This document shows, in pieces, positions 41,839 through 63,926 of a stretch of DNA of 64,000 bases. The DNA comes from Chondrosia reniformis (lineage: Eukaryota; Porifera; Demospongiae; Chondrillida; Chondrillidae). The stretch lies in assembly GCA_947172415.1 (NCBI GenBank), contig OX359189.1:6772501-6836500 (forward strand). The letters are read 5' to 3'. A model generated the notes under the pieces. It was not told the origin of the DNA. It did no database searches and saw nothing but the letters and a program-made list of their open reading frames with translations. Position 1 is the first letter of the stretch, and each line of letters begins with the position of its first letter. The position numbers were made by a program, and so were the translations under genes.

Positions 41839-44055
41839 TTATTTTCCATTTTCTGCAGATTCAGTGGAGGCACTCTTTTGCTGGGCTACCAATGCATATT
41901 CCACATCTTCTGTCTCCTTCTTAGTCCTGGTGGGGGGTTTTGTTCGTTCTGATTCAGAAAACTTAAGATCAGCATATTCAATATTCTGATCTTGCTTGGT
42001 CGTCTTGTTTTTATCCACTTGAGCATACTCTTCTGTCTTATTACTGCATGCGTATGAAAAAATGAAGGCTCGCAAACTAAAATACCAAAAATTACTTAAA
42101 TGGCTCCATCCATGCACTGGCCATGACTAGCTAGCTTTAACACTTTTCACTAGATTTTTACAACTAATAACTTAGACTTCTAATAAGCATAAACCTAACT
42201 AATACATAAATACTTACCCTTGGCTACGCGTATTAGCTGCTTTTCTAGATGTTCCTACATTGGTTTTAAAAATAACACAAATGCATGGAATACTGGAAAC
42301 GCATACGTACACCTATTCACCTACATAATATACATACGTACCTCCAAAGCAGGCCAATTTAAAGCAGTAGCAAAAGAACAAGATAAGTATAACTACAGCA
42401 GCAACTATAACAACTCCAATCACAACACCAACAGCAATACCAATTGTAGCTCCAGTAGATAAAGTAGCAGGTGGAGCAGTAGTCGACAAATCTGTATTAC
42501 ACAGATATATAGATACAACTATATGAATATGTATACATGTCACAAATTGACTTGAACCTGATTACTGTAATTTACCTCCTGTATATACTCTTGTAGCAAC
42601 AGGTTCACCCATTGTATTGAGAAGTGTTACATTGATAGTGAACACATCAGTGTAACCAATAGTGGAGAATGTGGCACACAAACCATCATTTGACAAATTA
42701 ACTCTGTCCAATTCAGGAGACTCAAAGTTACATGTAAAATCCACAAATAACTCTGAACACAGTGATGGCTTCTCACAGCATATCATTAATGGTTCAGAGT
42801 CCTTATTTGGAAGGACATATTTAAACTCCACAGCCAACTTATCAATAGCTACGTATATTCAATTGAAATTGACAATAAACAGTTTTACAATGTATACCTG
42901 ACACAACTGATAGGTACATGGTTATTGCAAAACAACAGATCATTAACTAATCAAACTCACAGTATGAGTTACTAGAAGGTAATACGGCAGTGTCACTGCC
43001 AGCTCCACAGCCATTATAAGGAATAACTGTTGTATTATAATCCTTACATTGCTCAGGTGGAGTGTAACACATCTGGTCTACAGTTTCATTACTACTGGAC
43101 TCTACATTATTGTTAGTAAATGTGACAGAGAAGTAAGTTACTGGTCGACTGCAGGTAGTAGCATTCCTGCACACATTATATGATCTGCCATTGTCAATTT
43201 CAATTCTGTACAATTCGTAACTACACTGAGGAGGACCTGGAGATATACATAAGTACCTTTTTATAGACAAGATGTAAATGAAGTGGTCCTAGAATTACAA
43301 TCTGCGACTAACCAACTGCAATAGTTGCTATTTGACTGCCAGTCTCACTTCCACTCACAACACCAGTACACTGAACAGTTGCTCCAGTATCCTCAGGTAC
43401 CAAGTTGAGTATGGTCAGTTCTGATGGTCTAGTAAATGCACGATCATCTGGAGAGGAGAACCTTGTCATAGAATTTAAGCCAAAGGCTGTAGCTTGTGTT
43501 ATATCAGAAACACCATCCAATCCTCTGATAGTCCATACAGATCCGCCACTATCTGGTGTACATGTGAAGGTGATGTTCTCTCCTTCACACAACGGTTGTA
43601 GACCAGTGGGCATCAAAAGGGGATCTATATGTATAATATACATGTATATACAAGGACCATTGACATTAGTGTATACATGGGACACAAATAACCACATAAA
43701 CATGCATATACACATCTAATAGTTCACATTAGATATATTAAATATTAGTTCATTTTAGAGGCTTACCTTATACTAAAATAATGTAATACACATCGAGAAG
43801 AAAGAGCATTAAGGTATAGATATATAGAACCTTAAGAATAACTAAATGATATAATTACTTTATAAAGTAGGTTCTAGGTACTTTCGTATACATTACCTAA
43901 AGATAGGCTAGTTTATTCATCGTAGTCATAAAGCTGACAATTTATCTGAAAACGTTACAATCTTAAAATTTTATAGTCTCACCTTGTCCCAAAACAACTC
44001 CAGACCAGACATTCAAAAGGAACAAGATGATAGTCAGCGTTACTGCCATTGCCAT
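41839..44055 (-). CDS. Pair 1 minus member: Ig/FN3-type receptor with ITIM tail
   Basis: Seven exons, 441 residues: 43983-44055 (signal, TLTIILFLLNVWSGVVLGQ), 43313-43624 (Ig: ITFTC, VWTIRG, EDTGATVQC), 42961-43236 and 42576-42848 (two Cys-rich FN3-like domains), 42342-42491 (TM, IGIAVGVVIGVVIVAAVVIL), 42218-42254 (37 bp), 41839-42043 (tail). Phases 1,1,1,1,1,2. Tail tyrosines are EEYAQV, IEYADL and VEYALV; the last two fit the ITIM consensus. By analogy with vertebrate ITIM receptors it would recruit SH2 phosphatases; this is inference. The ATG lies 134 bp from the ATG of the plus-strand partner, whose ectodomain is nearly identical. Confidence 0.87.
42390..43716 (-). repeat. Inverted repeat arm 1 (receptor ectodomain)
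   Basis: Copy of 44407-45737 in opposite orientation. Covers three ectodomain exons, the introns between them and half of the TM exon. The 76 bp intron after the Ig exon is identical, and the third ectodomain exon plus flanking intron appears identical. A few amino-acid differences occur in Ig and domain 2. Confidence 0.88.
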
Positions 44056-44189
44056 GTATTATACAATTGTTTCCAAAATATAATATATATAATAGATAGT
44101 AGTAAACGTATCTATATAATTTACATAAATTTTATATAATAGTTATGTATTACTATAATATTAAACCTGTATAAGCGTTATGTACGTAA
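44056..44189. promoter_or_regulatory. Putative bidirectional promoter of pair 1
   Basis: Only 134 bp separate two divergent start codons, each followed by a clean signal peptide exon. The interval is AT-rich (TATA-like tracts on both strands) and must contain both 5' UTRs and the shared promoter. Upstream non-coding exons elsewhere are not excluded. Confidence 0.55.
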
Positions 44190-46498
44190 ATGGAATGCCT
44201 ATATATCTACGCTTTAATACTCTTTCTCCTCGATTTTATTTTGGCACAAGGTAAGCCTTAAAGTAAAGGCCTATAGGGAACTTTGACAGCTGTTTCTGGG
44301 AATTTCACACTTTATCATTGACCCTGGAAATCTTTGTTTTCTTCTTGATCTTTTGTGAGTCCTTGACTATATACAATATTAGAGGTCATTTAATAGAACT
44401 AATAAATGTGTGTATATGCATGTTTATGTGGTTATTTGTGTCCCATGTATACACTAATGTCAGTGGTCCTTGAATCCATGTATATTATACGTCTAGATCC
44501 CCTTTTGATGCCCACTGGTCTACAACAGTTGTGTGAAGGAGAGAACATCACCTTCACATGTACACCAGATAGTGGCGGATCTGTATGGACTATCAGAGGA
44601 TTGGATGGTGTTTCTGATATAACACAAGCTACAGCCTTTGGCTTAAATTCTATGACAAGGTTCTCCTCTCCAGATGATCGTGCATTTACTAGACCATCAG
44701 TACTGACCATACTCAACTTGGTACCTGAGGATACTGGAGCAACTGTTCAGTGTTCTGGTGTTGTGAGTGGAAGTGAGACTGGCAGTCAAATAGCAACTAT
44801 TGCAGTTGGTTAGTCGCAGATTGTAATTCTAGGACCACTTCATTTACATCTTGTCTATAAAAAGGTACTTATGTATATCTCCAGGTCCTCCTCAGTGTAG
44901 TTACGAATTGTACAGAATTGAAATTGACAATGGCAGATCATATAATGTGTGCAGGGATGCTACTGCCTGTAGTCGACCAGTAACTTACTTCTCTGTCACA
45001 TTTACTAACAATAATGTAGAGTCCAGTAGTAATGAAACTGTAGACCAGATGTGTTACACTCCACCTGAGCAATGTAAGGATTATAATACAACAGTTATTC
45101 CTTATAATGGCTGTGGAGCTGGCAGTGACACTGCCGTATTACCTTCTAGTAACTCATACTGTGAGTTTGATTAGTTAATGATCTGTTGTTTTGCAATAAC
45201 CATGTACCTATCAGTTGTGTCAGGTATACATTGTAAAACTGTTTATTGTCAATTTCAATTGAATATACGTAGCTATTGATAAGTTGGCTGTGGAGTTTAA
45301 ATATGTCCTTCCAAATAAGGACTCTGAACCATTAATGATATGCTGTGAGAAGCCATCACTGTGTTCAGAGTTATTTGTGGATTTTACATGTAACTTTGAG
45401 TCTCCTGAATTGGACAGAGTTAATTTGTCAAATGATGGTTTGTGTGCCACATTCTCCACTATTGGTTACACTGATGTGTTCACTATCAATGTAACACTTC
45501 TCAATACAATGGGTGAACCTGTTGCTACAAGAGTATATACAGGAGGTAAATTACAGTAATCAGGTTCAAGTCAATTTGTGACATGTATACATATTCATAT
45601 AGTTGTATCTATATATCTGTGTAATACAGATTTGTCGACTACTGCTCCACCTGCTACTTTATCTACTGGAGCTACAATTGGTATTGCTGTTGGTGTTGTG
45701 ATTGGAGTTATTGTTGCTGCTGTAGTTATCATTTTAGCAATCTGTTACTTTTGTGGTCTCAGATGTTCCTGTTCAGTCTATTTTCAGAAACCAACTATAA
45801 GTATGTAATTGCAGTATGTGAGGGTATATCGTGAATGCTGCATGCTTGAATAAGATTATGTTAAGACAATTGCGTACTTCTAGCCCATTTTAATTTACAG
45901 TCAGTAGACTTTGAGTGGATGGGGATTGTAATTTTACCAAAAAATGTTAAGATATCTCAAAAGTTTAACTACATGGCCATTGCTCCAACTTTACCCTGAG
46001 ACTACTTTTATTTCTATTTTATCCTAGAAGGATAAATTAGAAATAAAAAGAATGAGATAAAAAATTAAAATCCACAATTAGCTGATGACTAAACATCCAT
46101 GAGCAAGCAACCATAAAATTATGCTAACTACTGCGCATGCACATACCAAGCTATCCTACTCCATGCAGGCTATTGCGTTAGTGCCCACCAAGCCTCTTAT
46201 TCGTTAATTCATAATTTATTGTGTGATCTATTTTACGTATTATTGCACAAACTGATCAGTTGGCCCATTAACCATGGCCCATGGTATCATCTACTTCATC
46301 TACTACAATTATACTGTACTATCTGTTGTAGTTGTGTTGCCAAGCTAGCAATTGCATTTTTTCTGTCTCACCTTAGGAGGTACTTCCAAACCTGTAACTG
46401 ACTATGAAAATATCGTCATGAATAGTAGAAAACAAGCAGTAAAATCTGAGGAAGATGTAAATATAGAGTGTAATCCTGCTTATGGAGTGATAAAGTAG
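44190..46498 (+). CDS. Pair 1 plus member: same ectodomain, NPAYGVIK tail
   Basis: Six exons, 404 residues: 44190-44250 (signal MECLYIYALILFLLDFILAQ), 44497-44808 (Ig), 44885-45160 and 45273-45545 (FN3-like), 45630-45800 (TM, IGVIVAAVVIILAICYFC, then a short basic/Cys segment), 46377-46498 (tail). Phase 1 throughout. The ectodomain differs from the minus partner by only a few residues (QQ for QP, V for E, S for T, D for N, A for T). The tail is unrelated: TDYENI (TxYxxI, ITSM-like) and a C-terminal NPAYGVIK, an NPxY motif. Two YxxI sites 22 residues apart give a loose ITAM-like arrangement. The last splice (576 bp intron) is the least certain. Confidence 0.85.
44284..44365 (+). repeat. Dispersed repeat, copy 2 (intron 1 of pair 1 plus member)
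   Basis: Diverged copy of 21997-22084 (gacagctgtttctgggaa through gagtccttg), same orientation. It is present in this gene's intron 1 but not in the matching intron of its inverted partner. Confidence 0.55.
44407..45737 (+). repeat. Inverted repeat arm 2 (receptor ectodomain)
   Basis: Inverted partner of 42390-43716, separated from it by about 690 bp that holds both signal exons and the promoter. Similarity starts in intron 1 and stops inside the transmembrane exon, just before the tails diverge. Confidence 0.88.
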
Positions 46499-46616
46499 GA
46501 AACACTGAGTATAAATAGTGTGTGCATAGAGTTTTAACTTAAAGTTAAGTAATTATAGACCCAGCTTCTATGTTTGCCATTCATGGGTTTTAATAGCTAT
46601 GTACATGGACATTTAA

Positions 46617-46622
46617 AATAAA
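46617..46622 (+). terminator. Possible poly(A) signal AATAAA
   Basis: AATAAA 119 bp after the stop of the pair 1 plus-strand receptor, followed by a T/G-rich stretch. Fits a 3' end but is a short motif in AT-rich DNA. Confidence 0.5.
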
Positions 46623-47854: not shown

Positions 47855-48404
47855 TTAACTAACCTCATGCAAGTCACTCATTATTTCGCTCTGGCTTATC
47901 CTTTTTGGAAAGTCTACATCAGCATACATCACCATTTCCACTTCCTTCTTACTCTGAGGGGGAGGGGGTTTTGGTTGAGAGTTGTCAAATTTAAGGTCAG
48001 CATATTCCACTACATCTTGGTGTTTCTTCTTTGCGTCGGGATCTATTTTAGAGTTGGTAGCACCTTTGAATTCTTGATCTCTAAAAAGTAAACAACATGT
48101 AAACATGTATACCATGATGAGGGAAGAAAAATGGATGTCACATTGTGGTAAACACTGTCCTTATATTGTAGTAAAGTTTTCTCACATACCAAGACCCTTA
48201 GGGAGATAAAACAGGCATAGCAAAATATTAGACAATCACTAATAATAAATTAAAGCATTATTAAAGTACCTCCAGCTCCTACAATTACTCTTCTTCTTTA
48301 GATAGCAGCACAAGATTACTATACACACAACTACTATGATCACCACAATGATACATACCAGAGCTACATGCACCCACACCAATACCAGCAATTGATAAGC
48401 CTCC

Positions 48405-48640
48405 TGCAATGACTGTAACACAAGAGATACAAGTAAATAAAAAACATTTACAAAAATGATGTTAGAAGTAAGAATGGCAGTGTTCACTAATACATCAGCA
48501 AAAAGTATTGAAACAAGACACTGATTATATGATAAGGCTAATAATACAGAAGTTGCATATATACTGAAATGAAATTTAAGTAACTTAACCATACACTTCT
48601 GTGTTTGGGTGCACCAAGCTGAAGTAGGAATGCTATTCAT
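48405..48640 (+). mobile_element. Small repeat R1, copy a
   Basis: About 230 bp repeat in the intron before the TM exon of the broken receptor. Contains caagtaaataaaaaacattt, gacactgattatatgataag and ttgcatatatactgaaat blocks shared with 50747-50936 and, inverted, 60020-60222. No coding capacity. Confidence 0.6.
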
Positions 48641-49149
48641 AAAGTTGAGTCATAAATAATATCTTTAGAGGTGGGTCGATGAGGACTAGTAAAAAATTCA
48701 ATTAAAATTGCACACTGGCCACGTCCAACATATGTATCAGCACAAACGTCAACAGTGAAGCTGCTTCCCACTGGTAGGGATATATTAGTAATATAAGCTT
48801 CATTCACACGTTCAAAAGCTATAACATCATTGAAATTCTTCCCATCTCTATATAGTCACTGTAACATATAAAGTAATGGGTGTAGAATCACAAACATCTT
48901 GTCTTGATAGCTATCTAAAACAGAATTAGAATATTTGTGTAAACAAAATGTTTAACTGAATCAACAACAGTAATGCAAGAATTGGTTAAATATGTAAAGA
49001 TGCAAACTTACTGATGAAACAACTATTTCTAAGTTGACATCATTTCCATTTAAAGGTAGCAGAAACTCAATATTCCCTGTTACTATATAAAATAGATAAT
49101 CAAACTCAACGGATAGACCATAATATAATGCTTTCGATAAAAACGTATT

Positions 49150-49395
49150 ACAAAGATAAATAAAAACACTTAAAAAATGAAATTAGAAGTAGGGATGGCA
49201 GTGCTTCCAACAATCACAAATCAATCAAATCTGTAAAAAGTAGCGAAACAATTGCAAGAAAGGGATCATGTGACAAGGTTATAACCATACAGAAGTGGCA
49301 TATATACTGAAATTTAAGTGACTTAACCATACACATCACTTCCATGTTTGGGCGCATCAGGATAACTGAAGTAGGGATGGTGCACCCAAATTAAT
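49150..49395 (+). mobile_element. Small repeat R1, copy b (diverged)
   Basis: Diverged relative of R1 in the intron after the FN3 exon. Keeps gaagtagggatggcagtg, tggcatatatactgaaattt and tgtttgggcgca. Older than the other copies by its divergence. Confidence 0.5.
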
Positions 49396-50182
49396 TTTAT
49401 ACAACCAAATCGCAAAATGAAATATAATATAGGGGGCAGCACATAAAAGTGAATATATGTCACTTTTTTGAATCCTAATGAAAAGACTATCAGAAGTACA
49501 CTCTAAGTATGGATGGCTGAAAAACATGGCCATCCTATTTACAATTAAAACAAAAATAAATCTTTAACAATGGAATTTTTGGTTACATTCAACTATGTAT
49601 TTACAGTCATATATATATGATATGATACCTCCTTCCAATGTCTGTATAACTTCAGTGAGATTATGTCCACCACAAACTTGTGTCTCAACTGTTACTGAAT
49701 AGTTAGTACATCCATCAAGTCCTCTTATAGTGTATGAAGTGTCATTGGTAGTAGTTTGGTTCTCGCTCATTCCACTTTCAGACCACTTGATCATGTACTG
49801 TGTAGGACGACAACCTGATCCAACACAGTCCCAAGATAGTGATATGTTGTTTACACCAGATGAAGAAGATGTCTTGATCAGGTTGAATGGACCTGTATAT
49901 GAAGAAGTAAAATACAATACTTTGTGATGATGCGTATATAGTACATAAAGCAGGGTTCTTTTAAAAAATTACACAAGGGAGTCCCAGGTAAATACAGTAA
50001 AATTGAGGGGGTAACCAGATTCAATACATTTGCTTGCTTTTACAATTTGACTTCTTCAAGAAGAGGGAGTCAAATTGTGTAAATGTCCCCCTGTCTGCCT
50101 CCTTAAATGAAAGAAAGGAATGCAAGGAAGTGAAGAGATTATTTAGTAGTAGCTTTCTCTTAAAGTGTCAATTTTGTATAGT

Positions 50183-50746
50183 ATCAGAGAGTACGGTAGT
50201 ACTCTCTAAGTAGGAATGGCCGGAAAAAAAAATGGCCGCCCTATCCAATGTATTAGCAATCAACACCTCATAAATCGCCAACGAAGCGATTTTCGGTTAT
50301 ATTCGGTTATTTGCAGCGATTAATGCACGCTTTCCTAAATGCCAAAACATGTTTCGACGCTCTACCCGCTCTATAGCGTTCAAAAAGCGGTTAACTAGGA
50401 ATAGACCCACTTCCAAAATTCATTTTTTCTTCTTCTTCTTCTTCTTCTTTTATTGAATAGACTAGCGCTAATATGCGAACTTATGCGGGCACGTACTAGT
50501 TATAAATCGTCATAAATATTTCAGAACTAGGTAATAGACAGCCCCAAATCTGAATGCGCTCTACAATAAGCATGTTAATTGTGAAGAGCGAAAATTGTGG
50601 TCTTCTCGGACGCCATTTTTTAATTAAGAGATCATGGTTTTCGGCATATTTCTCTTGTCTAAGACGTTATTTTGAGATCTTCGCCAAGAAAACTTTCAAA
50701 TCAATTTAAAACTAGTAATATTAAGAGGAAAAAAGGGGGAATACAA
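50183..50746 (+). mobile_element. Mobile element block at the broken centre of pair 2
   Basis: Starts with a short palindrome (gagagtacggtagtactctc) followed by aagtaggaatggccgg. 50209-50470 is a close copy of 59771-60010. 50471-50746 has no second copy in the window. Together with the R1 copy after it, the block occupies the place where the Ig, signal and promoter segments of pair 2 should be. Confidence 0.6.
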
Positions 50747-50936
50747 GTAAATAAAAAACATTTACAAAAATGATGTTAGAAGTAGGAATGGTAGTGTTCA
50801 CTAATACATCTGCAAAAAGTATCGAAACAAGACACTGATTATATGATAAGGCTAATCATACAGAAGTTGCATATATACTGAAATTTAAGTAAATTAACCA
50901 TACACTTCTGTGTTTGGGCGCACCATTCCTACTTAA
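50747..50936 (+). mobile_element. Small repeat R1, copy c
   Basis: Nearly the same as 60020-60222 in inverse orientation. It contains aagtaggaatgg near its start and ends in ccattcctacttaa, which are inverted ends. It stops at the first codon of the recognisable Ig exon of the downstream receptor. Confidence 0.6.
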
Positions 50937-50937
50937 G

Positions 50938-53163
50938 GTTAGTGCGCCCAATCTTTGTGATGGAGAATCAGCTACTTTTACGTGTACCACATCTGGAAGT
51001 AACACTCTATACCACTGGTTCATATTTGGTTTGAGTGGTGAAGGAGGTATAATAGATTCTCCTGCCAGAAGTCTAATATCACGGTCATCAGGACGTTTCT
51101 CCACTACTGATGAAGCGGGTGTTATTCCTGAGTCAAACCTCATGATCTCTGGTTTTACAACTGCTGACAATGGAACCGTGATTTACTGTAACGATGCTGG
51201 TAATCCAACAGTGTTTAGTAGTACCAACATCACGATCGGAGTTGGTGAGTTGTATAGCAATAGTAAATCGCATCTTTTTAGAACAAGGAGTGGAGTACAG
51301 TGCCAAAGATTGATTATTTTTATGAAAGAGCTGGTAGAAAGTATTACATTTCTTTCTTTTTTATAATCCTACTTTTTGAATTCTCTCATAATGCTCTGTA
51401 TGTTACATCGTATTATTGTTTGATTTTACAGGTACATTCAACCTGATGAAGACATCTTCTTCATCTGGTGTAAACAACATACCATTATCTTGGGACTGTG
51501 TTGGATCAGGTTGTCGTCCTACACAGTACATGATCAAGTGGTCTGAAAGTGGAGTGAACGAGAACCAAACTGCTACCAGTGACACATCATACACTATAAG
51601 AGGACTTGATGGATGTACTAACTATTCAGTAACAGTTGAGGCACTAGTTTGTGGTGGACATAGTCTCACTGAGGTTGTACAGACATTGGAAGGAGGTATA
51701 TACATGGATATGTTTGTGGTGTGTACATTTTGAAGTAAATTTACAACTCAGGCCCGTAGGAAGCATTAAATATTTGGTGTGGCCATTTTGTGGATATCAT
51801 TATTATACGTAGAACTACAAGTACTTTATTGCACAACAAACACATGACAGAAAGGTATCAAGGTGATCGCGAACGTGAGCTACCAGTGTCAAGCTATTTC
51901 TGCTACTGTAGTCACCACTGAGAACTGCATATTTGCTTGCGATGTAGTGTATATATAGCAGTAATGAACATTTGCAATAATGCTCAAGAAATGCTTGCAT
52001 TTACAAGCTCTTTGTATAATAAAAATACCTGAGGCAGGCCAAAAAGTAGGGCAGCCTTCCTACGGCCATGCATTGAAAAGGATTAGAATTAGAAAGGTAA
52101 CCGATTTTTTTAGTGTTTCATGAAATTCCCATTCCACATTTTAATAGTATGTAAGATTTAAAATGTAGTTTACAAGATCTGATGATATTAAAAGTGATAG
52201 GTGTAAATATTATAATTAATAGTAGGCATGTAATTATAAAACTGTTTTCAAAGTGAGGGTGGATCAAATGTTTGTATTGATTTGGCTAGCTGCCAATGTC
52301 AAAATACAATGTTGAAAAGTGAGGCAATTGAAGTATGATAAGTTGACCTATACTATATATATACATGTAAGGGACATCAGCAATTGTAGAAATATTCTAG
52401 CATGACAAAATGTGCATGTTCTAGTAGTTCTAGGGTTGTGACTTGAGTATAGAGATCGTGAGGAAAAAATAGATTTTTAATCATAATATTTGTTTGACAA
52501 ACAGCTGTTCATCTAACTCATATACACTATTTTATTTCTTGTAAATCTTTAGAATATCTTGAAGCCTTCGCAGCAGTGGCCGTAGGAGATAGAATTGATG
52601 TTAGCTACATATCTGTTTGTCCAAATCTTCGAAAAATCTACTGTTGCTTTAATATTTCTGAGGTACAGTCACTTTCAGTTAGCACACTTCTAGTGGCGTT
52701 TGTTGGCAGAGAAGCAAAAGGAAGTTTTCCATATGTACGAGAAGGTGTATACACAGTATCTGTGACTCTATTGTATAGCAATGGATCAGTTATCTCAGGA
52801 AGTACAGTCCAGAGACAAGTGGAAGTGGTGTCAGGTATGCCTATTGTTTACATGTGCAGTTACTGTACTTTGAACACTGTTTGTTTATTTATAGAATCTG
52901 ATTTAGTATTAACTACAGGAGCTGCTATTGGTATATCAGTTGCCGTATGTGTGTTTATAATGATACTGCTAGTAATCGCCTCTTTCTTCCTGGGATGTCT
53001 CTTTGGAAGGAAAAGGGCCTCTTCTGATAATCATCAGGAGTCAGGAGAAAGTAAGAGTGCTTCAACTGTCACTAACAAACAAGGTAGTGCTTGCTATGAG
53101 GCAATGGAAGTGGAGCAGAAAGTCAGTTTGGAAACAAATCCTGCTTATGGAGTGCTAAAGTGA
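50938..53163 (+). CDS. Pair 2 plus member: Ig/FN3 receptor, NPAYGVLK tail, 5' end missing
   Basis: Exons: 50938-51244 (Ig: ATFTC, LYHWFIFGL, DNGTVIYC), 51432-51695 (FN3), 52553-52834 (third, FN3-like domain), 52895-53163 (TM and tail). Phase 1 joins. It is highly similar to 61007-63926, introns included. The 5' end of the Ig exon (first strand) and any signal peptide exon are replaced by mobile sequence ending at 50936; no phase 1 acceptor fits. Either the gene is decapitated or it uses a new upstream exon. Tail: CYEAMEVEQKV and C-terminal NPAYGVLK, two Yxx(hydrophobic) sites 13 residues apart plus an NPxY motif. Downstream frames show no break. Confidence 0.75.
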
Positions 53164-53534: not shown

Positions 53535-53805
53535 ATGCAAGAACCTAGCTATGAAGTACTTCAAATAAGGATATAGCTCAATGGCCCATTCAGAGTCACT
53601 CTAAGTTGTTATATAGGTATATATATCAACTACCCTGTCACTATACAACTATATATGTGCATGGCAGCTGCAGGAGTGTTCAAATTAAGTCCAATCAATT
53701 CTGCCTATTTATAATGAATAGGATAAAAGCATTACAAACACAACTTATATTTATCGTCAGCATATTCCGGCTTATCCTTTTTGGTATTGTCTACAACCGC
53801 ATACG
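53535..53805. other. Convergent 3' region with ancestral tail remnant
   Basis: Between the tails of pair 2 plus and pair 3 minus. On the minus strand 53732-53805 is the out-of-frame continuation of the pair 3 tail (with VTYAVV) that a 1 bp deletion has removed from the reading frame. The rest, 53535-53731, shows nothing recognisable. Confidence 0.5.
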
Positions 53806-56800
53806 TCACCATTTCCGCTTCCTTCTTACTCTGAGGGTAGGAGGTTTTGGTTCAGGGTGGTCAAATGGTTCAGGGTGGTCAAGGTCGGCATATTCCACTC
53901 CATGCTTCTCATTCTTAGCACCACGGTCTACGTATACTTTAGTGTGTGTAGCACCTTCTTGATCTCTGAAGAGGGAAAATATGTAATAGATATATGCCAC
54001 GAAACAATGAATGTGGTAAATACTGTCCCTATATATACTGCATATTGTTTTCTCTTGTACCTTTCCTGGGATCCTATATAGAGAGACCAAATGGGGTTAA
54101 TTAAAAGATTGGACACAAACAACACAAAAGTATTATTTGAGTACCTTTTATTCCTACATTACTCTTCTTCTTCTTCTTCTTCTGATAGTAGTAGCACCCA
54201 ATAACTATAAACAGAACTACTACTAGAGCTACACCCACACCAATACCAGCTATTTCTGCATCAGATAAGCCTCCTGCAATGATAGTACAGCAAGTATGGT
54301 AACTGATATATTGATAAAGTAGAGCCACTAGTACTGGCATACCTGTAGTAGTTGTAGCCTTTTTATACATAATTTTACACTGTCCACGTCCAACAGGTGT
54401 TACAGCACAAACCTCAGCAGTGTAGCTACTTCCCACTGGTATATTAGTGCGGTAGACTTCATTTACACTAAGTCTTTTAAAAGCTACAGTGTCGGTAAAA
54501 GTCTCTCCATCACTTGCTACCGTAACCGTAATAGTTAGATTAATGGGTGTAGTACTGCAAATATCATTTCTTGTTAACTGTGTATAATAGAATTGTAAAG
54601 AAACTATGCAATAGTTAGAATCAACAACAACAAAATAGTTAAATATGTAAATCATTATTCCAAAGAGATACGCAAACTCACCGATGTAACAACAAATTCT
54701 AGGTTACCTTCACTTGGCAGGATCTCTGCTACAATCTTCCCCGTGACTATACAAAATGTTAGATCAAACATAACCATTGAGCGTGTAGAATGGATACATA
54801 GAAAGCTTTCAAAACATAAAATGGTCTACATGTTTCTACCTTAACATTAATGCATTGCAACATATCAACAAGTATTTTGAGTTTAAAAATTCGTGGGGTT
54901 GCTTCTTCTTAGCATCGGGATTTATATATTTTAGAGTAGATAGCAGCTTGATATCAAAAAGTAAACAACATATAAGCATGTATACCATGATGAGGAAAGA
55001 AACAAGTATTTCGAGTTTAAAAACTCACGGGGCTACCGCCCCCACATTCGCACTACTTGGCCACATCGTTGGACTTTAATGTATACATTCATAATCTTAA
55101 CAGCTTAAGCGTCCTGAACATTATAAATAACGATGGAAAAGCTTCGTTAACTAAAGCTGAACGCTGCCATTTACAAAAACAATGTATTGACGTATAAATT
55201 AAGTGTTACAATAGTACAATCTACAATTGGTGCCTTTTAGCTTTGTGCTGGCCATGAAGATGGCTGCGAAGCAGCAGTGCATGCCCTTTGCCTCATATTA
55301 GAGGGTGAAGAATCTGAATCCGTCCTCCTAGTGGATGGCACCAACGCCTTCAATAGGAGAAATGCACTTGTTAACATTAGACATACCTGTCTCCCACTTT
55401 ATACCATCTGCACCAACATTTATAGGGATAGCCGTCAGCTTTTTATTGAGCAGGAAGTCCCTCTTGTCACATGAAGGCACTACACAAGGAAATCCTCTCG
55501 CTATGGCAATCTACGTCTCTAATACATAGCCTGAAGTACCAAGATGTGAAGCAGATATGGTTTGCTGACGACTCCTCAGCAAGCGGCAAGCTCGAAAACC
55601 TCAATCAGTGGTGGCTCAGGCTACAGGAAGCTGGTCCTAGGCTTGGATACTATCCCAATCCATGTAAAACATGGATCATTGTCAAGGAAGAACATCATGA
55701 GAAAGCCAACAAAATATTTTTTAATAGCGGTATACGGATCTCCACTGGTGGACGTGAACATCTAGGATCTTCCATAGGCAAGCAGTCGTTCATTGACGAT
55801 GTCGTGAGATCCAAGGTTCAAAACTGGACTGAGGAACTAAAGCAACTATCTAAGTTTGCAGACAGCCAACCCCACTCTGCATATACACATGGATTCGTTC
55901 CTACCTGCAATTGCAATTACAGGGAAAGCAGCTTTGTCAGACCTCGAAAGATTCCTTGTAGCCTTACCCATGAAGCTGGGAGGTTTGGAAATTGAAATGC
56001 CCATGAAAGTGGCCTCACATAACTATTACATGTCCAAAAAGATTACCTCCCACCTAGTAAGCCATATCTTGTCTCAGAGCACCATACAGGTGATCTCAAG
56101 GATGCCCATCTCAAAACAAAATTTGAATGTGTCCATCTTAAGAAACAAAATCAGCACGACAAAGTTGAGGCCATTTCCCAGCAGTTATCTACCTCCGCCC
56201 GCTGTAGTCTAGACCTCTCACAAGATAGAGGTGCATCCATCTGGCTTACTGACCTGTCAATCAGGGCCCATGGTTTTGTCCTACACAAGAGTGCCTTTAG
56301 AGATGCACTGCGCTTAAGATACAGATGGGAACCTTGACATCTGGCCCCAAGTGGCACCTGTGGCAGTGCCTTTAACGTAGAACATGCACTGAGTTGTCCT
56401 ACAGGGGGCTTCCCAACCATCTGCCATAATGAGCTGAGAGACATCACTGCCACGACCGAGGTCTGCCATAGTGTATCTATGGAGACAAACCTCCAACCTC
56501 TGTCTGGAGAAAGTCTGTCTATGAGAAGCGCCATTGCAAGTGAGGACGCATGTGTAGATGTACAAGCTCTTGGTTTCTGGGGTGATCAGAAGCAAAGGGC
56601 ATACTTCGATGTGAAGGTCTTTAACCCATATGGCAAAAACTACCGCAATACCTCACTCAGTCAATGCTACTGCAGGTGTTAGCTATAGAAAAAGAGATAC
56701 TACGAAGAGCACATCTGCAAAGCATCAAACATTCACCCCACTAATCTTCTCCACATACTGTGGTATAAGCAAGCAGACAATAACAATGTACAAGCATCTT

Positions 56801-59800
56801 GCCTCTCTCCTGAGTGAAAAGAGATCTCAATCCTACGCCATGACAATGAACTGGATAAGGTGCATGCTGATTAGATTTGCCCTCGTCCTCCCAACTATCA
56901 TGTGTCTTAGAGGTGCACGTTCCTCCAGCCACCAATTTACCAACAGGAGTGGAGCCGATTCACCCATAGACCTTGCAAATAGCGAGGGAGACTATAGTGA
57001 ATATTTTTTGTAGTAAAACTGATTTAACTCTGTATAATGGTTGTGTATGAACCCGTATTTTATATAAATCTATATATATGTAGGTCCATAACATGAAGCC
57101 ATACAACAGAATCGGCAAATGAAAACAATATAAGGGGCTGCCCCTAAAAACAGATGATCAAAGTTAACTACTGGAAGTGCACACAGTACAAAAACAAGGA
57201 GTTCGAGTTTAAAAAACTCGTGGGGCGCCAGGCGCCCCTAAGTAAACTCGAACTACTTGGCTGGTTCTTATAGATATCCGGTTAACCGATTTCCGATTGA
57301 CTCTTGTTGGCGGTCAATTTTTCAAGGCCATATCTCGTAGAAAACGTTTTTGCGCAAGCTTTACGTTACATAGTATTAGTAAGGGTAGTTTTTAAGTCCA
57401 TTTCGTTCGTTCAATGTTCTACGCTAAGGAAGAGAAAGCTAATTTTAAGCTAGAAAACGAAAGCTAGCCGCACGTCCGCCATTTTTTGACAGATATATAT
57501 ACAGTACAAATATATATATATATATACAAGACTAAGAACAGGAAGCCATACGTCAACATAATTTCTGAAAACAATATAGGGGCGCCTGCGGCGCCCCAAT
57601 AATGCTTTCAAATCAAATAAAATACATGTTTCTTCCTAAATGCAGTGAGCTAGTAATAAATAGATTACTGGTAAATATTTGAACCTAGATGTTATGATTA
57701 ATTTAATGATAAATTAACAATTATTCCATTACAGAGAAGATTATACAGTTCCCTCAAGAAATCCTGAATCAGTTTATATGAATTTAGAATGTTTTTGAAT
57801 CCCAATTTAATTGTGCATGATAATGAGATGTGCTAGGTATACACTAATGAACCCCCCTACAAACATATCCATTTATGTACCTCCTTCAACTGTCTGTATA
57901 ACTTCAGTGAGACTGTGTCCACCACAAACATGTGTCTCAACTGTTATAACTCGGTATTGTCTCAATTCCCGAGTAGCCTTTCAAGGGGCTTTTGAGTATT
58001 TTTGACACCTTTTAATAGCAATATAAAATTATTAACGCCTTTGATGTCCTGAGCACTCGCTTTACCCCTTGTTATATTCTCAATATGATTATCACTCACG
58101 AGCTTGAGGCACTCGAGTGCAAGCGTTACTTTGGTCTGTACCGTAATTATATATGTACACAATCCCCCATACAAACATATGTATGTATATGTCTGACACT
58201 CAAGAGAGAAACAAAACTGTGACTTTAAACACTCTGAAGCTGAAAGATGATCTCTCAACAGCATACAAAATTAGTACATTTAAATCTTATATACCATATT
58301 AGCATATGGAATGTTAATTTCAAGAGAAAATGAAACAAAATCTAAGAAACTATCAATCTGTTACCTTTCAAAATGTAACCAGCAGTCAACCGTATATAGG
58401 TGTAAATATACTTCAAAATGTACACACCACAATACACATATCCATGTGTGTATATACGTACCTCCTTCCACTGTCTGTATAACCTCAGTGAGACTATGTC
58501 CACCACAAACTTGTGTCTCAACTGTTACTGAATAGTTAGTACATCCATCAAGTCCTCTTATAGTGTATGATGTGTCATTGGTAGTAGTTTGGTTCTCGTT
58601 CACTCCACTTTCAGACCACTTGATCATGTACTGTATAGGACGACAACCTGATCCATCACAGACCCAAGATAATGATATGCTATTCACACCAGATGAAAAA
58701 GATATATTCATCAGGTTGAATGGACCTGCATATGAAGAAGTAATATACAATGCTTTGTGATGATGCGTATACAGCAGGGTTCCTTTTATAAAATATAACA
58801 AGGGAGCCCAGGTACAAAATATAATATATAATACAGTAAAATTGAGGGGATAACCAGATTCAATACATTTGCTTGTTATTGCAATTTGTCAGAGAGAGGG
58901 GGAGTCAAAATATTTGTAAATGTCATCCCTCACCCCTACTTGTCCTCTTAAATGAAAGAAAGAAATGCAAGGAAATACATAGGATTAGTACTAGCTTTCT
59001 CTGAGTTGATTTCTATTTTGTATGGTATTATACACTTAAATAACAATTACAATCATCTACGTATATGTTATTAATTTGGCTTCTTGTTCTATAGAGATTA
59101 TTACTATCATTACAACTTACCAACTCCAATCGTGATGTTGGTACTACTAAACACAGTTGGATTAAGGGCATCAATACAGTAAATCACTGCTCCATTGTCA
59201 GCAGTTGTAAAATTAGAGATCATGAGGTTTGATTTAGGAATATCACCCTCTACATCAGTTGTGGAGAAACGTCCTGATGGTCGATCACTCAGAACTCTAG
59301 CAGTCCTCTCCCCAATATCTCCTTCACCATTCAAACCAAAGATGTACCAGTTGAATATAGTGCTACCTCCTGGTTTAGTACACGTAAAAGTAGCTGATTC
59401 TCCATCGCAGAGATCACCACTGCCTGTAGTACTTGTTAAAGTTAGACCTGTTTAATGTATAATAATGAAGAAACAACAAAAGAGCAAGTTAGTCAGTATG
59501 ATCGGTCCAAAGCGAAAACAAGTTAAGTAAATTACATTCTTATAGAACTACTTGGCTGAGACGATCCTTCTCATATAAAGGAGCTAGTGATTGGAATAAT
59601 CTCCCTATCTCATTGAAGAGGATATCCTCATTTGTGAATTTTAAAAGAAAGCTTAAGGAGTACATTTTTAATTTATAGTAATTATACTTGTAATTTTAAC
59701 TATTTTATATTAGTGCTCTTTTATTTGTTATTATATATGTATCAGAGAGTACGGTAGTACTCTCTTAATTAAGTAGGAATGGCCGGAAAAAAATGGCCGC

Positions 59801-60357
59801 CCTATCCAATGTATTAGCAATCAACACCTCATAAATCGCCAACGAAGCGATTTTCGGTTACATTCGGTTATTTGCAGCGATTAATGCACGCTTTCCTAAA
59901 TGTCAAAACATGTTTCGACGCTCTACACGCTCTATAACGTTCAAAAATCGGCTAACTAGGAATAGACCCATTTCCAAAATTCATTTTTTCTTCTTCTTTC
60001 ATAGACTAGCGCACCATTCCTACTTAAGATTAGTGCGCCCAAACACAGAAGTGTATGGTTAAGTTACTTATATTTCAGTATATATGCAACTTCTGTATGA
60101 TTAGCCTTATCATATAATCAGTGTCTTGTTTCGATACTTTTTGCAGATGTATTAGTGAACACTGCCATTCCTACTTCTAACATCATTTTTGTAAATGTTT
60201 GTTATTTACTTTATACAGGTAGACCAGCCAAATGAGCTGATGGGGCTTCCTATTCAAATGATAAATAATGAATGAATAAATACTTTAAAACAAATATTGT
60301 TAGCTCACTTTGACCAGTTACGTTGTTAAACAAGAGAATGATTCCAAAAACTAACAT
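53806..60357 (-). CDS. Pair 3 minus member: Ig/FN3 receptor with shortened ITIM tail
   Basis: Eight exons in phase (413 residues): 60309-60357 (signal MLVFGIILLFNNVTGQ), 59121-59447 (Ig), 58462-58725 (FN3), 54682-54746 and 54343-54577 (membrane-proximal domain), 54145-54273 (TM, VALVVVLFIVIGCYYY then poly-Lys), 54061-54073 (13 bp micro-exon), 53806-53965 (tail). Phases 1,1,1,0,1,1,2. The tail keeps VEYADL (ITIM form). A 1 bp deletion in the proline stretch, compared with 47855-48080, causes an early stop and removes VTYAVV. The intron 54747-58461 is 3.7 kb and holds a retroelement, a tail-exon relic and an FN3 fragment, so the two halves may once have been separate genes. I am fairly sure of each exon, less of their being one transcript. 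Confidence 0.65.
54898..55003 (-). pseudogene. Relic of an ITIM-receptor tail exon
   Basis: Minus-strand match to the 5' part of the tail exon and preceding intron at 48030-48130 (shared gcatcgggat, tattttagagt, aaaaagtaaacaacat, tataccatgatgagg). Degenerate, without splice signals in place. Indicates a further receptor once lay here. Confidence 0.55.
55240..56965 (+). pseudogene. Degenerate reverse transcriptase retroelement
   Basis: Fragments of one RT-type protein in several frames: 55240-55474 (CAGHEDGCEAAVHALCL, then LLVDGTNAFNRR), 55471-55995 (WFADDSSASGKL catalytic-box region, WWLRLQEAGPRLGYYPN), 55856-56212 (GKAALSDLERFLVALPMKLG), 56161-56340 (ASIWLTDLSIRAHGF), 56341-56682 (HALSCPTGGFPTICHNE zinc-knuckle-like, then FWGDQKQRAYFDVKVFNPYG), 56630-56965 (FTPLIFSTYCGI...). 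Frameshifts and stops break it, so it is dead. The VDxxNAFN and FADD boxes are as in retroelement RTs common in cnidarian and sponge genomes; I recognise the family but cannot name its clade. It sits in the large intron of the pair 3 minus gene, in the opposite direction. Confidence 0.75.
57201..57253. repeat. Nested hairpin repeat
   Basis: Outer stem 57201-57210 (gttcgagttt) with 57244-57253; inner GC stem 57222-57229 (ggggcgcc) with 57231-57238. A related but diverged stretch (ttcgagtttaaaaactcacg) lies near 55015 and a shorter one near 54886, same orientation, on the other side of the retroelement. Confidence 0.6.
57254..57880. other. Mobile-element-rich intron sequence
   Basis: CG-richer than its surroundings in the first half. 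A second GC hairpin (ggggcgcc/ggcgcccc) lies at 57579-57597. 57530-57600 repeats the arrangement of 57100-57150 (gaaaacaatataggggc and similar). No gene seen. Confidence 0.4.
57881..57947 (-). pseudogene. Orphan 3' fragment of an FN3 exon
   Basis: Last 22 codons of the receptor FN3 exon (VETHVCGGHSLTEVIQTVEG) with an intact phase 1 donor site, but no exon start. It directly abuts the truncated MITE at 57950. It duplicates part of 58462-58725. Confidence 0.75.
57950..58141 (-). mobile_element. Truncated copy of the 27 bp-TIR MITE
   Basis: Inverted, partial copy of 62114-62388. It keeps the end gtacagaccaaagtaacgct and the internal region and lacks the other terminus. It is fused to the FN3 fragment at 57881-57947. 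Confidence 0.7.
59547..59678 (+). pseudogene. 3' end of a non-LTR retrotransposon
   Basis: Open to a stop at 59676-59678, encoding the typical RT C-terminus RRSFSYKGASDWNNLP followed by FKRKLKEYIFNL. Only the terminal part is present, as expected for a 5'-truncated LINE insertion. Lies in intron 1 of the pair 3 minus gene, opposite strand. Confidence 0.65.
59771..60025. mobile_element. MITE with AAGTAGGAATGG ends
   Basis: 255 bp between aagtaggaatgg and ccattcctactt, a 12 bp perfect inverted terminal repeat. TTAA at each end would fit piggyBac-like target choice. Close copy of 50209-50470. Contains acgaagcgattttcggtta. Non-coding. Confidence 0.65.
60020..60222 (-). mobile_element. Small repeat R1, copy d (inverted)
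   Basis: Reverse complement of 50747-50936. Next to the MITE at 59771-60025 and sharing its ccattcctacttaa end, so the two families may be related or nested. Confidence 0.6.
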
Positions 60358-60889
60358 TGAGTGATCACGAATTACCATTTTTGGATAATGGAACTAGGCA
60401 AGATAATAGGGCTTCCTCTTGACGGCCATTTTGCGTTTTTCCGAAAGCACTTGCGTAATCCCTATATTTGCCATATGTAATACTTTTCTTCATAAAACAG
60501 TTATACTGTATTTATTAGTCTATACTATTATAATATAATATTTTCGAGCATTCTGATTGGCCCTCCAGAATCCTGGTATGCTGAGTCAGCAAGACCAAGA
60601 AATGCGGCGAAATGTGCCAGACCCACTTTACGCAGGCGTAACGGTCTATTACATTTAGAGCCACAAATGTGGCTTTCAGTCGATAAAGGGATAAAGCAAA
60701 TATTACGCAATAATGTATCCTCTGACAGTGTGGGTGTGGCTAGGGTTATAGGTTAGGTCAGGGCTAGGTTAGGTTTATACTATATTATTGCATAATAATT
60801 TCGATACCCCATTTGTTCAGCCTTCATTTCTTGCGTCTGTAAAAGGTAAACAAGGTGATTGTGCAAATTCTAAGTTGATTTCATCATAA
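60358..60889. promoter_or_regulatory. Putative bidirectional promoter of pair 3
   Basis: 532 bp between two divergent start codons, each at the head of a signal peptide exon. Holds an inverted CCAAT box (attgg at 60553-60557) and a CG-rich core around 60600-60660, unlike the AT-rich surroundings. No repeat recognised. Confidence 0.5.
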
Positions 60890-63800
60890 ATGGCCATGGA
60901 TCTAGGTGGCTTCTTACTTTTGCAGTGTTTTCTCTCAATTAGTCAGAGTAAGAAAATATTTTAATGTAGCTTGCATGTCTGTCGCATTTTAATTTATTAT
61001 CAACAGGTCTAACTTTAACAAGTACAGTTAGTGGTGATCTCTGTGATGGAGAATCAGCTACTTTTACGTGTACCACGACTGGAAGTAACACTATATTCAG
61101 CTGGTTCATATTTGGTTTGAATGGTGAAGGAGATATTAGGGAGAGGACTGCTAGAGTTCTGAGTGATCGACCATCAGGACGTTTCTCCACAACTGATGCA
61201 CTGGGTGGTATTCCTGAATCAAACCTCATGATCTCTAATTTTACAACTGCTGACAATGGAGCAGTGATTTACTGTAACGATGCTGTTAATCCAACTGTGT
61301 TTAGTAATGCAAACATCACGATCAGAGTTGGTAAGTTGTAATGAATCACATCAATAGGGTAAGAAGTGGAATGCTATTCTAAATTACTGTTTAATGGGGC
61401 TATAGAAAAACTGTACAAGGAAACACCTTCTTATACAAAACTGTTTTATTTATTGTATATAATCACATATCACTAAAATTGTCATTGCATGCAATAAAAA
61501 TAACAATAACAAGTTAATACTTTGGTGATGTGGTACTGTACTTAGTGTGTTAAACATGCTGATTGATTGTACCTGTTTATGTTGCTCTGTCATCTACATA
61601 GGTCTATTCAAAATTATTGACAGACATTTGTACCTCCTAGACCAGTCCTAGACTATATATAGTTAGTGACTCATGACCTAGTGCATATATACTTGATGGA
61701 TGTGTCAATTAAATATACAGTTATTATTATTACTATAATAAAGTCTTAATTTTCGTATAAAGTTTTGCATGTCACATCGTATTACTGTTTGGTTTTACAG
61801 GTCCAATTAATCTGACCAAGACATCTTCCTCATCTGGTGTGAACAGCATATCATTATCTTGGGACTGTGTTGGATCAGGTTGTCGTCCTATACAGTACAT
61901 GATCAAGTGGTCTGAAAGTGGAGTGAACGAGAACCAAACTACTACCAATGACACATCACACACTATAAGAGGACTTGATGGATGTACTAACTATTCAGTA
62001 ACAGTTGAGACACAAATTTGTGGTGCACATAGTCTCACTGATGTTATACAGACAGTGGAAGGAGGTATACATACATATGTTTGTATGAGGGATTGTGTAC
62101 ATATATAATTACGGTACAGACCAAAGTAACGCTTGCACTCGAGTGCCTCAAGCTCGTGAGTGATAATCATATCGAGAATATAACGAGGGGTAAAGCGAGT
62201 GCTCAGGACATCAAAGGCGTTAATAATTGTATATTGCTATCAAAAGGTGTCAAAAATACTCAAAAGCCCCCTGAAAGCGCTACTCGGGAATTGAGACAAT
62301 ACCGAATTATTTGACTATAATAGCACTCGAGTTTTTGAGTGACTCGCTCTCGAATCTCGCAAGTGTAAGCATTACTTTTGGTCTGTACTGTATATAATTA
62401 ACTCAGATACTGAATCAGATGGTGTGGAGTGTGCATTTTGAAGTATATTTACAGCTACCAGTTACATTGAAAGTGATTAGAATTAGAAAGGTTACTGAAT
62501 TTGATAGTTTCTTAGATTTTGTTTCATTATCACATGAAATTAACATTCCATATTTTAATATGGTATATAAGATTTACGTGTATTAATCATTCATTCTTTT
62601 GAGAGGATCATCTTTTGACTTCACAATTTTGTTGTCTCTCTTGAGCATGCATCAGATGTTTTGACCCCTTTTTCAGTACTAATCATGTAGGTTACAAGAT
62701 CTGATGATATAAAAAGTGTGTGATAGGTGTAAATATAATAAGAATGTAATTCAAATAACTGTATTCAAAGTGTGAGATGGATAATATTATGTTTACATTG
62801 ATTTAATTGGCTGCAAATGTCATAAGACAATGTTGAAAAGTGAGGCAATTGAAGTATGACAAGTTGACCTATAGCATACGTGTATATGTAAGGAACGTGA
62901 AAAATTGTAGAAACATTCGATCAAGCATGACACTTAAGATGTGCATGTTCTAATAGCCAGTAGTCATGATTGTGACTTGAGTATAGAGATCACAAGGAAA
63001 AGGTAGTTTTAACTTTTGTTGTAAAACTTATACAAATAGCTATTCTTCTAACTTATATACACTAATAGAGTAAGGATTTCTTCTAACTGCATCGAACTTA
63101 TCTTTGAAAAGGGTCATCTTTCGACTTTTGGGAACGTCTAGAGACGCAGTTTTTTGGTTCTTCTTGCCAGACGTTTCGACCCTGGGGGTCTTCTTCAGTG
63201 ACTGATGTTGGTGATCTTCAAGGTGTCTCTAGATGTTCCCAAAATTTGAAAGATGACCCTTTCCAAAGATTATATACACTATTTAGCTATTTCCTGTAAA
63301 TCTTTAGAATATCTTGAAGCCTTCACAGCAGTGGCTGTAGGAGATAGGATTGATGTTAGCTACATATCTGCTTGTCCAAATCTTCAAAATATTTACTGTC
63401 GCTTTAATATTTCTGAGATTCAGTCACTTCCAGTTAGCACTCTTCTAGTGGCGTTTGCTGGCAGAGAAGCAAAAGGAAGTTTTCCATATATAAGAGAAGG
63501 TGTATACACAGTATCTGTGACTCTATTGTATAGCAATGGATCAGTTATCTCAGGAAGTACAGTCCAGAGACAAGTGGAAGTGGTATCAGGTATGGCCTTT
63601 TGTTTACATGTACTATTAATGGACTTTAAACACTAGCTGTTGTTTGTTTATTCATAGAATCTGGTTCAGTATTAACTACAGGAGCTGCTGTTGGTATATC
63701 AGTTGCCGTATGTGTGTTTATAATGATACTACTAGTAATCACCTCTTTCTTCCTGGGATGTCTCTTTGGAAAGAAAAGGGCCTCTTCTGATAATTGTCAG

Positions 63801-63926
63801 GAGTCAAGAGAAAGTAAGATTGCTTCAACTGTCACTAACAAACAAGGTAGTGCTTGTTATGAAGCAATAGAAGTGGAACAGAAAGTCAGTTTGGAAACAA
63901 ATCCTGCTTATGGAGTGCTGAAGTGA
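60890..63926 (+). CDS. Pair 3 plus member: complete Ig/FN3 receptor with NPAYGVLK tail
   Basis: Five exons, 398 residues: 60890-60947 (signal MAMDLGGFLLLQCFLSISQ), 61007-61330 (Ig: ATFTC, FSWFIFGL, DNGAVIYC), 61801-62064 (FN3), 63308-63589 (third domain), 63658-63926 (TM VGISVAVCVFIMILLVITSF plus tail). All introns are phase 1. The Ig and FN3 domains match the minus partner at 58462-59447 closely, while the third domain and tail are unrelated to it. Tail sites are CYEAIEVEQKV and TNPAYGVLK: YxxI-x13-YxxL, one residue longer than the usual ITAM spacing, and an NPxY motif. The TM has no charged residue, so no adaptor pairing through Lys/Arg is suggested. Best intact example of the plus-strand class. 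Confidence 0.87.
62114..62388. mobile_element. MITE with 27 bp inverted ends
   Basis: 275 bp element with left end gtacagaccaaagtaacgct and right end complementary to gtacagaccaaaagtaatgc, about 27 bp with a few mismatches. It inserts 50 bp after the FN3 exon. Non-coding. A truncated copy lies at 57950-58141. Confidence 0.75.
63102..63268. mobile_element. MITE with about 43 bp inverted ends
   Basis: 167 bp element; left end ctttgaaaagggtcatcttt, right end complementary to ctttggaaagggtcatcttt, and the match extends to tctagaga. The centre carries cagacgtttcgaccctg. It is present in this intron and absent from the matching intron of pair 2 (52300-52550), so it inserted after the duplication. 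Confidence 0.75.

Follow-up and report, generated by a model that had tools for sequence, protein, structure and literature searches.

Does a sponge carry paired receptors of the kind formed in vertebrates by the KIR, LILR and SIRP families, whose partners combine similar ectodomains with unlike tails? The question is raised by a stretch of 64,000 nucleotides on chromosome 1 of Chondrosia reniformis (C1:6772501-6836500; hereafter the window). The original prediction had described here three head-to-head pairs of receptor genes, with an immunoreceptor tyrosine-based inhibitory motif (ITIM) in the tail of each minus-strand member and NPAYGV(I/L)K at the end of each plus-strand member. The three pairs are present, their outer limits (41839 and 63926) being the stop-codon ends of the first minus-strand and the last plus-strand gene. 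The layout is real and wider than the three pairs of the window, and a paired-receptor architecture is well supported. On balance we consider it probable that the locus encodes a sponge paired-receptor system, with head-to-head partners, exchanged ectodomains, and ITIM-type tails set against tails with a PAYG core.

We read 242,200 bp of DNA surrounding the window, together with 79,300 bp from a second cluster (C1:5.88-5.96 Mb), and searched the genome of 117,379,552 bp in 15 contigs, C1 having 10,409,357 bp. The assembly, odChoReni1.1, is given as 117.37 Mb in 14 chromosomes plus the mitochondrion, with a longest scaffold of 10.41 Mb, in the available part of its report (PMC12181767). All data represent one haplotype of this one assembly. 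Coordinates follow the numbering of the window, values above 64000 falling outside it. Pairs are named P1 to P9, with m for the minus-strand and p for the plus-strand member.

Head-to-head pairs and their tails

The genes follow a common plan of signal peptide, immunoglobulin (Ig) domain, fibronectin type III (FN3) or FN3-like domains, a single transmembrane (TM) helix and a tail. In the 242-kb stretch there are 28 Ig and 26 FN3 matches, only those longer than 170 bp being counted. Spliced models with GT-AG introns, mostly of phase 1, were obtained for both members of P1, P3, P4, P5 and P7; those of P1, P3 and P4 are firm, and the frames of P1, P3, P4 and P7 are open. The P7m model includes two weak or provisional donors and a provisional tail junction, and the D3a acceptors of the P4 and P5 models are off by a few bases, VPGPVP being indicated by further evidence that includes a database protein, P0001, described below.

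The Ig exon is predicted to adopt a V-type Ig fold. The best of five AlphaFold2 models of the P3p exon has this fold at a predicted local distance difference test score (pLDDT) of 87.9 (the other four, 37-56), and the PDB matches listed for it are, by title, mainly antibody and nanobody chains, with template-modelling scores of 0.54-0.66. Pfam ig fell below its cut-off. Of the four proteins tested with fn3, P7m alone passed (35.6 bits, cut-off 25); P3p (22.6) and P4m (22.0) lay just under it, and P1p gave nothing.

Eight Y(A/V)DL tails were located, all on the minus strand, and every one has a head-to-head NPAYG partner on the plus strand (pairs P1-P5 and P7-P9): 41982 with 46472, 48010 with 53137, 53898 with 63900, ~69050 with 72842, 73575 with 79022, 131033 with 138128, ~141494 (LHYVDL) with 146202, and ~153961 with 161090. 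The minus motifs of the three window pairs read IEYADL, VEYADL and VEYADL, and the plus tails end in NPAYGVIK, NPAYGVLK and NPAYGVLK, each with a stop codon directly after; a second plus-tail motif of the form Yxx(I/M) is found as YENI, YEAM and YEAI, all in agreement with the original prediction. Partners have unlike signalling tails, Y(A/V)DL versus the NPAYG class, in 8/8 pairs, the examined plus tails combining YxxPhi with NPAYG, and the rule linking tail to strand is kept in all eight, reaching past the window.

With the ITIM consensus taken as [S/I/V/L]xYxx[I/L/V], strict ITIMs are IEYADL and VEYALV in P1m (whose tail further carries EEYAQV), VQYADL and VTYAVV in P4m, VEYADL and VTYAVV in P5m, LQYADL and VEYAGI in P7m, and VEYADL in P3m. 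Their number in minus tails exceeds chance: of 20000 shuffles, the observed count of two was reached by 12 for P1m, 21 for P4m, 201 for P5m and 7 for P7m, and the single ITIM of P3m by 1339.

Genome-wide searches with the P4m and P7m tails found no Y(A/V)DL tail outside a pair, a weak stray (E 0.35) aside. The P4m search returned seven rows, made up of five tails at this locus (P3m being split in two) and the stray; the P7m search gave three matches, all at this locus. NPAYG tails number 16 in the 242-kb stretch, 15 on the plus strand and one on the minus (121916), besides two SPAYG tails, and 8/16 are without a Y(A/V)DL partner. The association of tail class with strand has a Fisher p of 1.2e-5, which we do not read as the probability of independent events because the gene copies are related. 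Nor are the eight pairs eight independent events, since duplication of the unit hands down its orientation and the minus tails are of about three subtypes, all related (P1; P2-P5; P7-P9). Selection acting on whole pairs, which had been argued from the strict order and strand, is therefore not established.

A candidate ninth pair, P6 (105.9-/106.9+), was excluded from the eight, its Ig exons being 41% alike and its plus tail reading NPAYDEL. At 65346-68268 (plus strand) there is a single gene with the tail NPAYGAVYSN and an Ig exon 97% like that of P5p, with frame breaks in the Ig and a stop in the FN3 exon. Besides pairs 7-9, the region from 136 to 180 kb holds numerous NPAYG genes of the plus strand that lack an ITIM partner; their TM and tail exons are near-identical, and some of the genes are frameshifted. 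The second cluster of Ig-FN3-TM genes (cluster B, C1:5.88-5.95 Mb) has every domain match on the minus strand; five of its tails have EYEVV followed by a terminal SPAYGVLNTEN or SPAYGVLDTEN, and we found none of the ITIM type there. The common core of the plus tails is PAYG rather than NPxY, because the cluster B tails end in SPAYG.

Of the three pairs described in the window, the layout and tails stand in all, but their completeness does not. Pair 2 is a relict, because we found no signal-peptide exon for its two members (49900-50960 holds no candidate with a splice donor) and P2m has two frame breaks and no Ig exon that we could find. The P2m tail is open and carries VEYADL and VMYADV. In P3m the second ITIM has been lost through a frameshift of the tail after the first. 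With pair 2 dead, the window therefore holds two potentially complete pairs, P1 and P3 (Table 1). The long intron of P3m contains, at 55241-57000 on the plus strand, broken frames that look reverse-transcriptase-like by their motifs; Pfam assigned no family to two open reading frames (ORFs) tested there.

Table 1. Features of pairs 1 to 3 in window coordinates (SP, signal peptide; aa, amino acids)
Feature	Position	Strand	Remarks
P1m, 441-aa receptor	41839..44055	-	Spliced model, GT-AG introns
P1m exons	44055-43983 (SP), 43624-43313 (Ig), 43236-42961 (D2), 42848-42576 (D3), 42491-42342 (TM), 42254-42218, 42043-41839 (tail)	-	
Gap separating divergent start codons of pair 1, 134 bp	44056..44189		Candidate shared bidirectional promoter
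P1p, 404-aa receptor	44190..46498	+	Spliced model
P1p exons	44190-44250 (SP), 44497-44808 (Ig), 44885-45160 (D2), 45273-45545 (D3), 45630-45800 (TM), 46377-46498 (tail)	+	Tail: TDYENI, NPAYGVIK
Pair 1 ectodomain block, minus copy	42389..43725	-	Inverted copy of 44396-45729; end within TM exon
Pair 1 ectodomain block, plus copy	44396..45729	+	
P2m relict	47858..49897	-	FN3, D3a, D3b (frame break), TM (frame break), open tail
Repeat-rich stretch where the pair 2 centre is missing	50226..50947		Copies at 48427-48584 and 59787-60211 (latter in pair 3)
P2p	50950..53163	+	Ig (start lost, begins late), FN3, D3, TM, open tail (YEAM, NPAYGVLK)
P3m, 415-aa receptor	53806..60378	-	Spliced model
P3m exons	60378-60309 (SP), 59447-59121 (Ig), 58725-58462 (FN3), 54746-54682 (D3a), 54577-54343 (D3b), 54273-54145 (TM), 53963-53806 (tail)	-	Tail: VEYADL only
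P3m second-ITIM remnant	53735..53851	-	VTYAVV, other frame
Gap separating divergent start codons of pair 3, 511 bp	60379..60889		
P3p, 396 aa counted from second ATG at 60896	60890..63926	+	Spliced model
P3p exons	to 60947 (SP), 61007-61330 (Ig), 61801-62064 (FN3), 63308-63589 (D3, plus type), 63658-63926 (TM + tail)	+	Tail: YEAI, NPAYGVLK

Signs of ectodomain-block exchange between partners

Partners of pair 1 are 98.4% identical over 1339 columns, comprising Ig, D2, D3 and the start of the TM exon; three differences, all amino-acid changing, fall in the Ig exon and none in D3. Those of P4 (95.3% over 1308 columns) and P7 (98.6% over 1280) are also highly similar in the ectodomain, and the same holds in part for P8 (93.0% over 540 columns and 72.4% over 850), P9 (three pieces, 85-92%) and P3, where Ig (89.8% over 363 columns) and FN3 (93.2% over 280) are alike and three further repeat or partial matches occur. 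In P2 only FN3 is shared (94.9% over 273 columns). The claim that window partners share their ectodomains thus stands for pair 1 and for the FN3 of pair 2, but in pair 3 it does not extend to the third domain, which is not common to both.

Compared in 60-bp blocks, the partners of P1, P4 and P7 show mostly 95-100% identity through ectodomain exons and introns, with a drop to background (mostly below 55%) on the signal-peptide side as well as at the TM and tail. P4 is a mosaic, its Ig exon being 83-98% identical and the adjoining downstream intron 100%. Signal peptides are class-specific, with P3p, P4p and P5p alike and P3m, P4m and P5m alike. In P4p a minus-type third domain is set between a plus-type signal peptide and tail; the third domain of P3p is of plus type. 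In our reading, ectodomain blocks were exchanged within genes that already stood on opposite strands, through conversion or a double exchange. Of 36 assignments compared within subfamilies for Ig, the true partner assignment ranks first, and of 144 for FN3 it is among the first two. Partners are not always each other's closest relatives: the FN3 of P5m is nearer to P4p, at 97%, than to P5p, at 75%, and the Ig of P7m is about equally close to P8p (99%) and P7p (98%). A 212-bp inverted repeat of 97% identity (57978-58189 and 62066-62277) adjoins the FN3 exons of both P3 partners.

Start codons of partners lie 134 bp apart in P1, 119 in P4, 100 in P5, 511 in P3 and ~2.7 kb in P7. Because the distance is only 100-134 bp in three pairs, we infer that partners are probably transcribed from one common start region. 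The unit consists of two predicted type-I membrane proteins encoded back to back on opposite strands, each with a signal peptide, a V-like Ig domain, FN3-like domains and one TM helix. If the locus is a paired-receptor system, partners would bind the same or related ligands through their similar ectodomains, because inverted partners appear to exchange ectodomain blocks by gene conversion; signal-peptide and TM/tail exons remain class-specific. The inverted layout would then be a concrete mechanism for keeping two differently tailed receptors specific to the same ligand. The minus member would signal through its YADL-type ITIM tyrosines, most likely with recruitment of a tandem-SH2 phosphatase, and the plus member through a distinct two-tyrosine tail (YxxI/V/M plus PAYG); units would be born and lost by duplication. 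The sequence itself shows the architecture, the orientation, the tail classes, the pattern of block exchange and the decay; co-expression, a shared ligand, phosphatase recruitment and an opposing outcome are steps that we infer, and a paired opposing function is plausible.

Among 82 SH2 exon matches in the genome, those on the minus strand of contig C3 at 9116351, 9115303 and 9113984 are followed by a protein tyrosine phosphatase (PTP) match at 9112923, and those at 9110350 and 9108757 by a PTP match at 9106746. These form, as exon matches only, at least two series in SH2-SH2-PTP order (C3:9.1067-9.1165 Mb), the order of a tandem-SH2 phosphatase, among the matches listed in a PTP search that scored 150 of 531 candidates; two of the C3 matches read through stops, as would happen across introns.

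Opposing signals, shared outputs or neutral repeats

The activating partner in vertebrates is of a type with a charged TM residue for an adaptor bearing an immunoreceptor tyrosine-based activation motif (ITAM), and with a short tail. By eye, no D, E, K or R was seen in the TM segments of P1p, P3p, P4p and P7p. The plus tails were also considered as ITAMs (YxxL/I x6-12 YxxL/I) and rejected as a misfit, the spacing being 13 in P3p and P4p and 22 in P1p, and P7p having V at +3. Two distinct tail classes exist, as had been predicted, but the opposing signals attributed to them are not established, and several observations weigh against them. The ITIM consensus also fits plus tails, namely P5p (VVYEDV, IIYMDV) and P7p (VYYESV); TDYENI of P1p fits the consensus of the immunoreceptor tyrosine-based switch motif (ITSM); and the second ITIM has been lost in P8m and P9m (VEYVGT). 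SPAYG in seven tails, five of them in cluster B, means that NPxY is not conserved as a phosphotyrosine-binding (PTB) motif, which weakens NPxY/PTB as the conserved plus motif. An adhesion receptor with two outputs, whose tails signal alike by way of separate SH2 adaptors or whose plus tail serves trafficking by YxxPhi endocytosis, would account for the YxxPhi and ITIM- or ITSM-fitting motifs as well as for the uncharged TM segments and the ITAM misfit. The tail classes are, however, clearly distinct and kept apart, and we regard such a receptor as possible, if on the unlikely side.

Further points weigh against any paired function. A broken or doubtful member occurs in 4/8 pairs (P2m together with the 5' end of P2p, P5p, P8m and P9p). 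The P8m Ig is broken; the P9p Ig is frameshifted and its TM exon missing; the P5m Ig exon is without its start. P5p is counted as doubtful because its TM exon has an 8-bp deletion relative to a sister copy at 67.3 kb, which the model bypasses through a weak donor. The P5 partners are only 72-83% alike, in three pieces. Constraint on the tails is weak: dN/dS by the Nei-Gojobori method (NG86) is 0.30-1.28 where both rates were measurable, values of 2.94 and 3.86 resting on few differences, and two comparisons have zero synonymous changes. By group the values are 0.30-0.58 in the P2m, P4m and P5m tails, 0.61-0.95 in P2p, P3p and P4p, 0.38-1.06 in far NPAYG genes, one value of 3.86 apart, and 1.03-2.94 for the P7m, P8m and P9m tails, which are short; as evidence of positive selection they are mixed and unconvincing. 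The exchange pattern is no proof of selection, because inverted repeats may be homogenized by neutral conversion.

An adhesion-type Ig/FN3 head-to-head pair that was duplicated as a unit, with ectodomains kept alike by neutral conversion, tails that differ only because non-homology prevents them from converting, and no paired function, would fit the broken members of pairs 2, 5, 8 and 9, the weak tail constraint and the extension of partner identity into introns, and the strand rule would follow from unit duplication. It sits poorly with the retention of YADL in tails otherwise only ~40% alike (P1m vs P4m), Y-A-D-L being invariant in a four-sequence alignment, with the frames that stay open in pairs 1, 3, 4 and 7, and with a YADL class that two genome-wide searches found only in pairs; we judge it unlikely. 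The arms of pairs 1 and 7, more than 98% identical, might also suggest a false inverted duplication assembled from hairpin reads. We rejected this because the sequences flanking the arms lack homology and are specific to their class, and because eight pairs repeat the layout at 72-99% identity; the assembly is Hi-C scaffolded with a quality value (QV) of 69.8 (PMC12181767, available part), and an error of this sort is highly improbable.

The proposal of a paired recognition system in an early-branching animal is upheld in that the host is a sponge and similar ectodomains are joined to unlike tails, though one of the window pairs on which it was built is a relict. A sponge paired-receptor system would carry ITIM-type paired logic back to an animal lineage that is among the earliest to branch, or would mark a convergence. 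A role in allorecognition, whose complexes are marked by extreme polymorphism and a linked fusion/rejection phenotype, or in defence is at present a hypothesis. The fuller proposal, in which paired receptors with ITIMs form a complex by which the sponge tells self from non-self, and in which the short common start region and the inverted layout would together keep opposing binding faces matched by conversion, is in our judgement quite unlikely; were it true, paired-receptor logic would be present, or have arisen independently, in Porifera. The locus supplies named genes for work on grafting, expression and polymorphism.

Known receptor systems and neighbouring features

P0001 is a database protein of 320 aa (ENA contig, 1483 bp) with an 86% match to P4p. 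It runs from mid-Ig through FN3, D3a, D3b and TM up to NPAYGVLK, with the same exons joined, and may be an mRNA or a spliced gene prediction alike, because a genomic piece of 1483 bp could also hold introns. With ~7,300-8,000 candidates scored and the coverage of other sponges uncertain, P0001 alone was returned as a relative, no ITIM-tailed counterpart was found, and the P7m search was empty. A fold predicted for P0001 without an alignment (pLDDT 38.5) was discarded.

The closest working likeness of the sponge locus would be vertebrate paired receptors (CD300A/CD300C, KIR, LILR, SIRP), in which V-like Ig ectodomains are common to partners, tails differ and ITIMs occur in one class. In primate CD300A/C, gene conversion is described as preserving extracellular similarity as the tails diverge (PMC12447643, available part). 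The sponge genes differ in their opposite-strand head-to-head units, in the FN3-like domains that follow the Ig, and in plus members that have tyrosines of their own and no charged TM residue that we could see. Membership of any vertebrate receptor family was not found by sequence.

Among invertebrates, the nearest analogues appear to be the fester co-receptors (FcoR) of the Botryllus fuhc locus and the Hydractinia Alr complex, both likened here by their descriptions. The FcoR are clustered receptors of the Ig superfamily (IgSF) with ITIM or other tyrosine motifs and an adjoining partner gene (PMC12065747, available part); they pair with fester-family genes, whereas sponge partners have a common ectodomain. 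Alr, likewise an IgSF cluster, has candidate genes that carry ITIM/ITAM motifs (cited in PMC12065747) and has 41 members (cited in PMC11999971); head-to-head ITIM/NPAYG pairing is not described for it in the available portions of these two papers. Proposed sponge recognition molecules include Ig types reported to be upregulated following grafting, and their descriptions, in the portions available, are without ITIM or paired organization (PMC11999971, PMC2248247). The terms immunoglobulin, receptor, ITIM, fibronectin and locus are all absent from the searched text of an Amphimedon grafting paper (PMC5450542), and the available parts of PMC2248247 and PMC9505182 treat sponge Ig-like receptor kinases, adhesion molecules or grafting, with ITIMs in other contexts and no sponge ITIM receptor. 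No report of a comparable sponge locus was found in literature whose coverage leaves out most subscription journals and all preprints. According to the available part of a 2025 review, there is no conservation among the proteins proposed for allorecognition in sponges, cnidarians and ascidians, and ITIM/ITAM logic spans cnidarians to mammals (PMC12065747).

Other features of the window include, adjoining pair 1 at 36366-38435 (minus strand), Ig-like, FN3-like and TM-like exons recognized by eye, with no Pfam match in two ORFs; the long tail has repeated Y-A/S-T-V motifs (ETYATV, PEYATV, VGYSTV), and this is possibly another tyrosine-signalling receptor. About twenty sushi-like exons in series, followed by a TM-like exon, occupy 13382-22680 (plus strand), mostly by eye, the ORF at 18161-18769 matching Pfam Sushi in two stretches (E 2.2e-24). 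Ig-like, FN3-like and TM-like exons with the tail motifs EGYSLV and EGYEML, again by eye, lie at 23258-25448 (plus strand), where Pfam gave nothing in the first ORF. A 706-bp minisatellite at 28693-29398, with a 16/33-bp CTACTGCCCCCTTCCA-like unit, has long ORFs in three frames of the plus strand.

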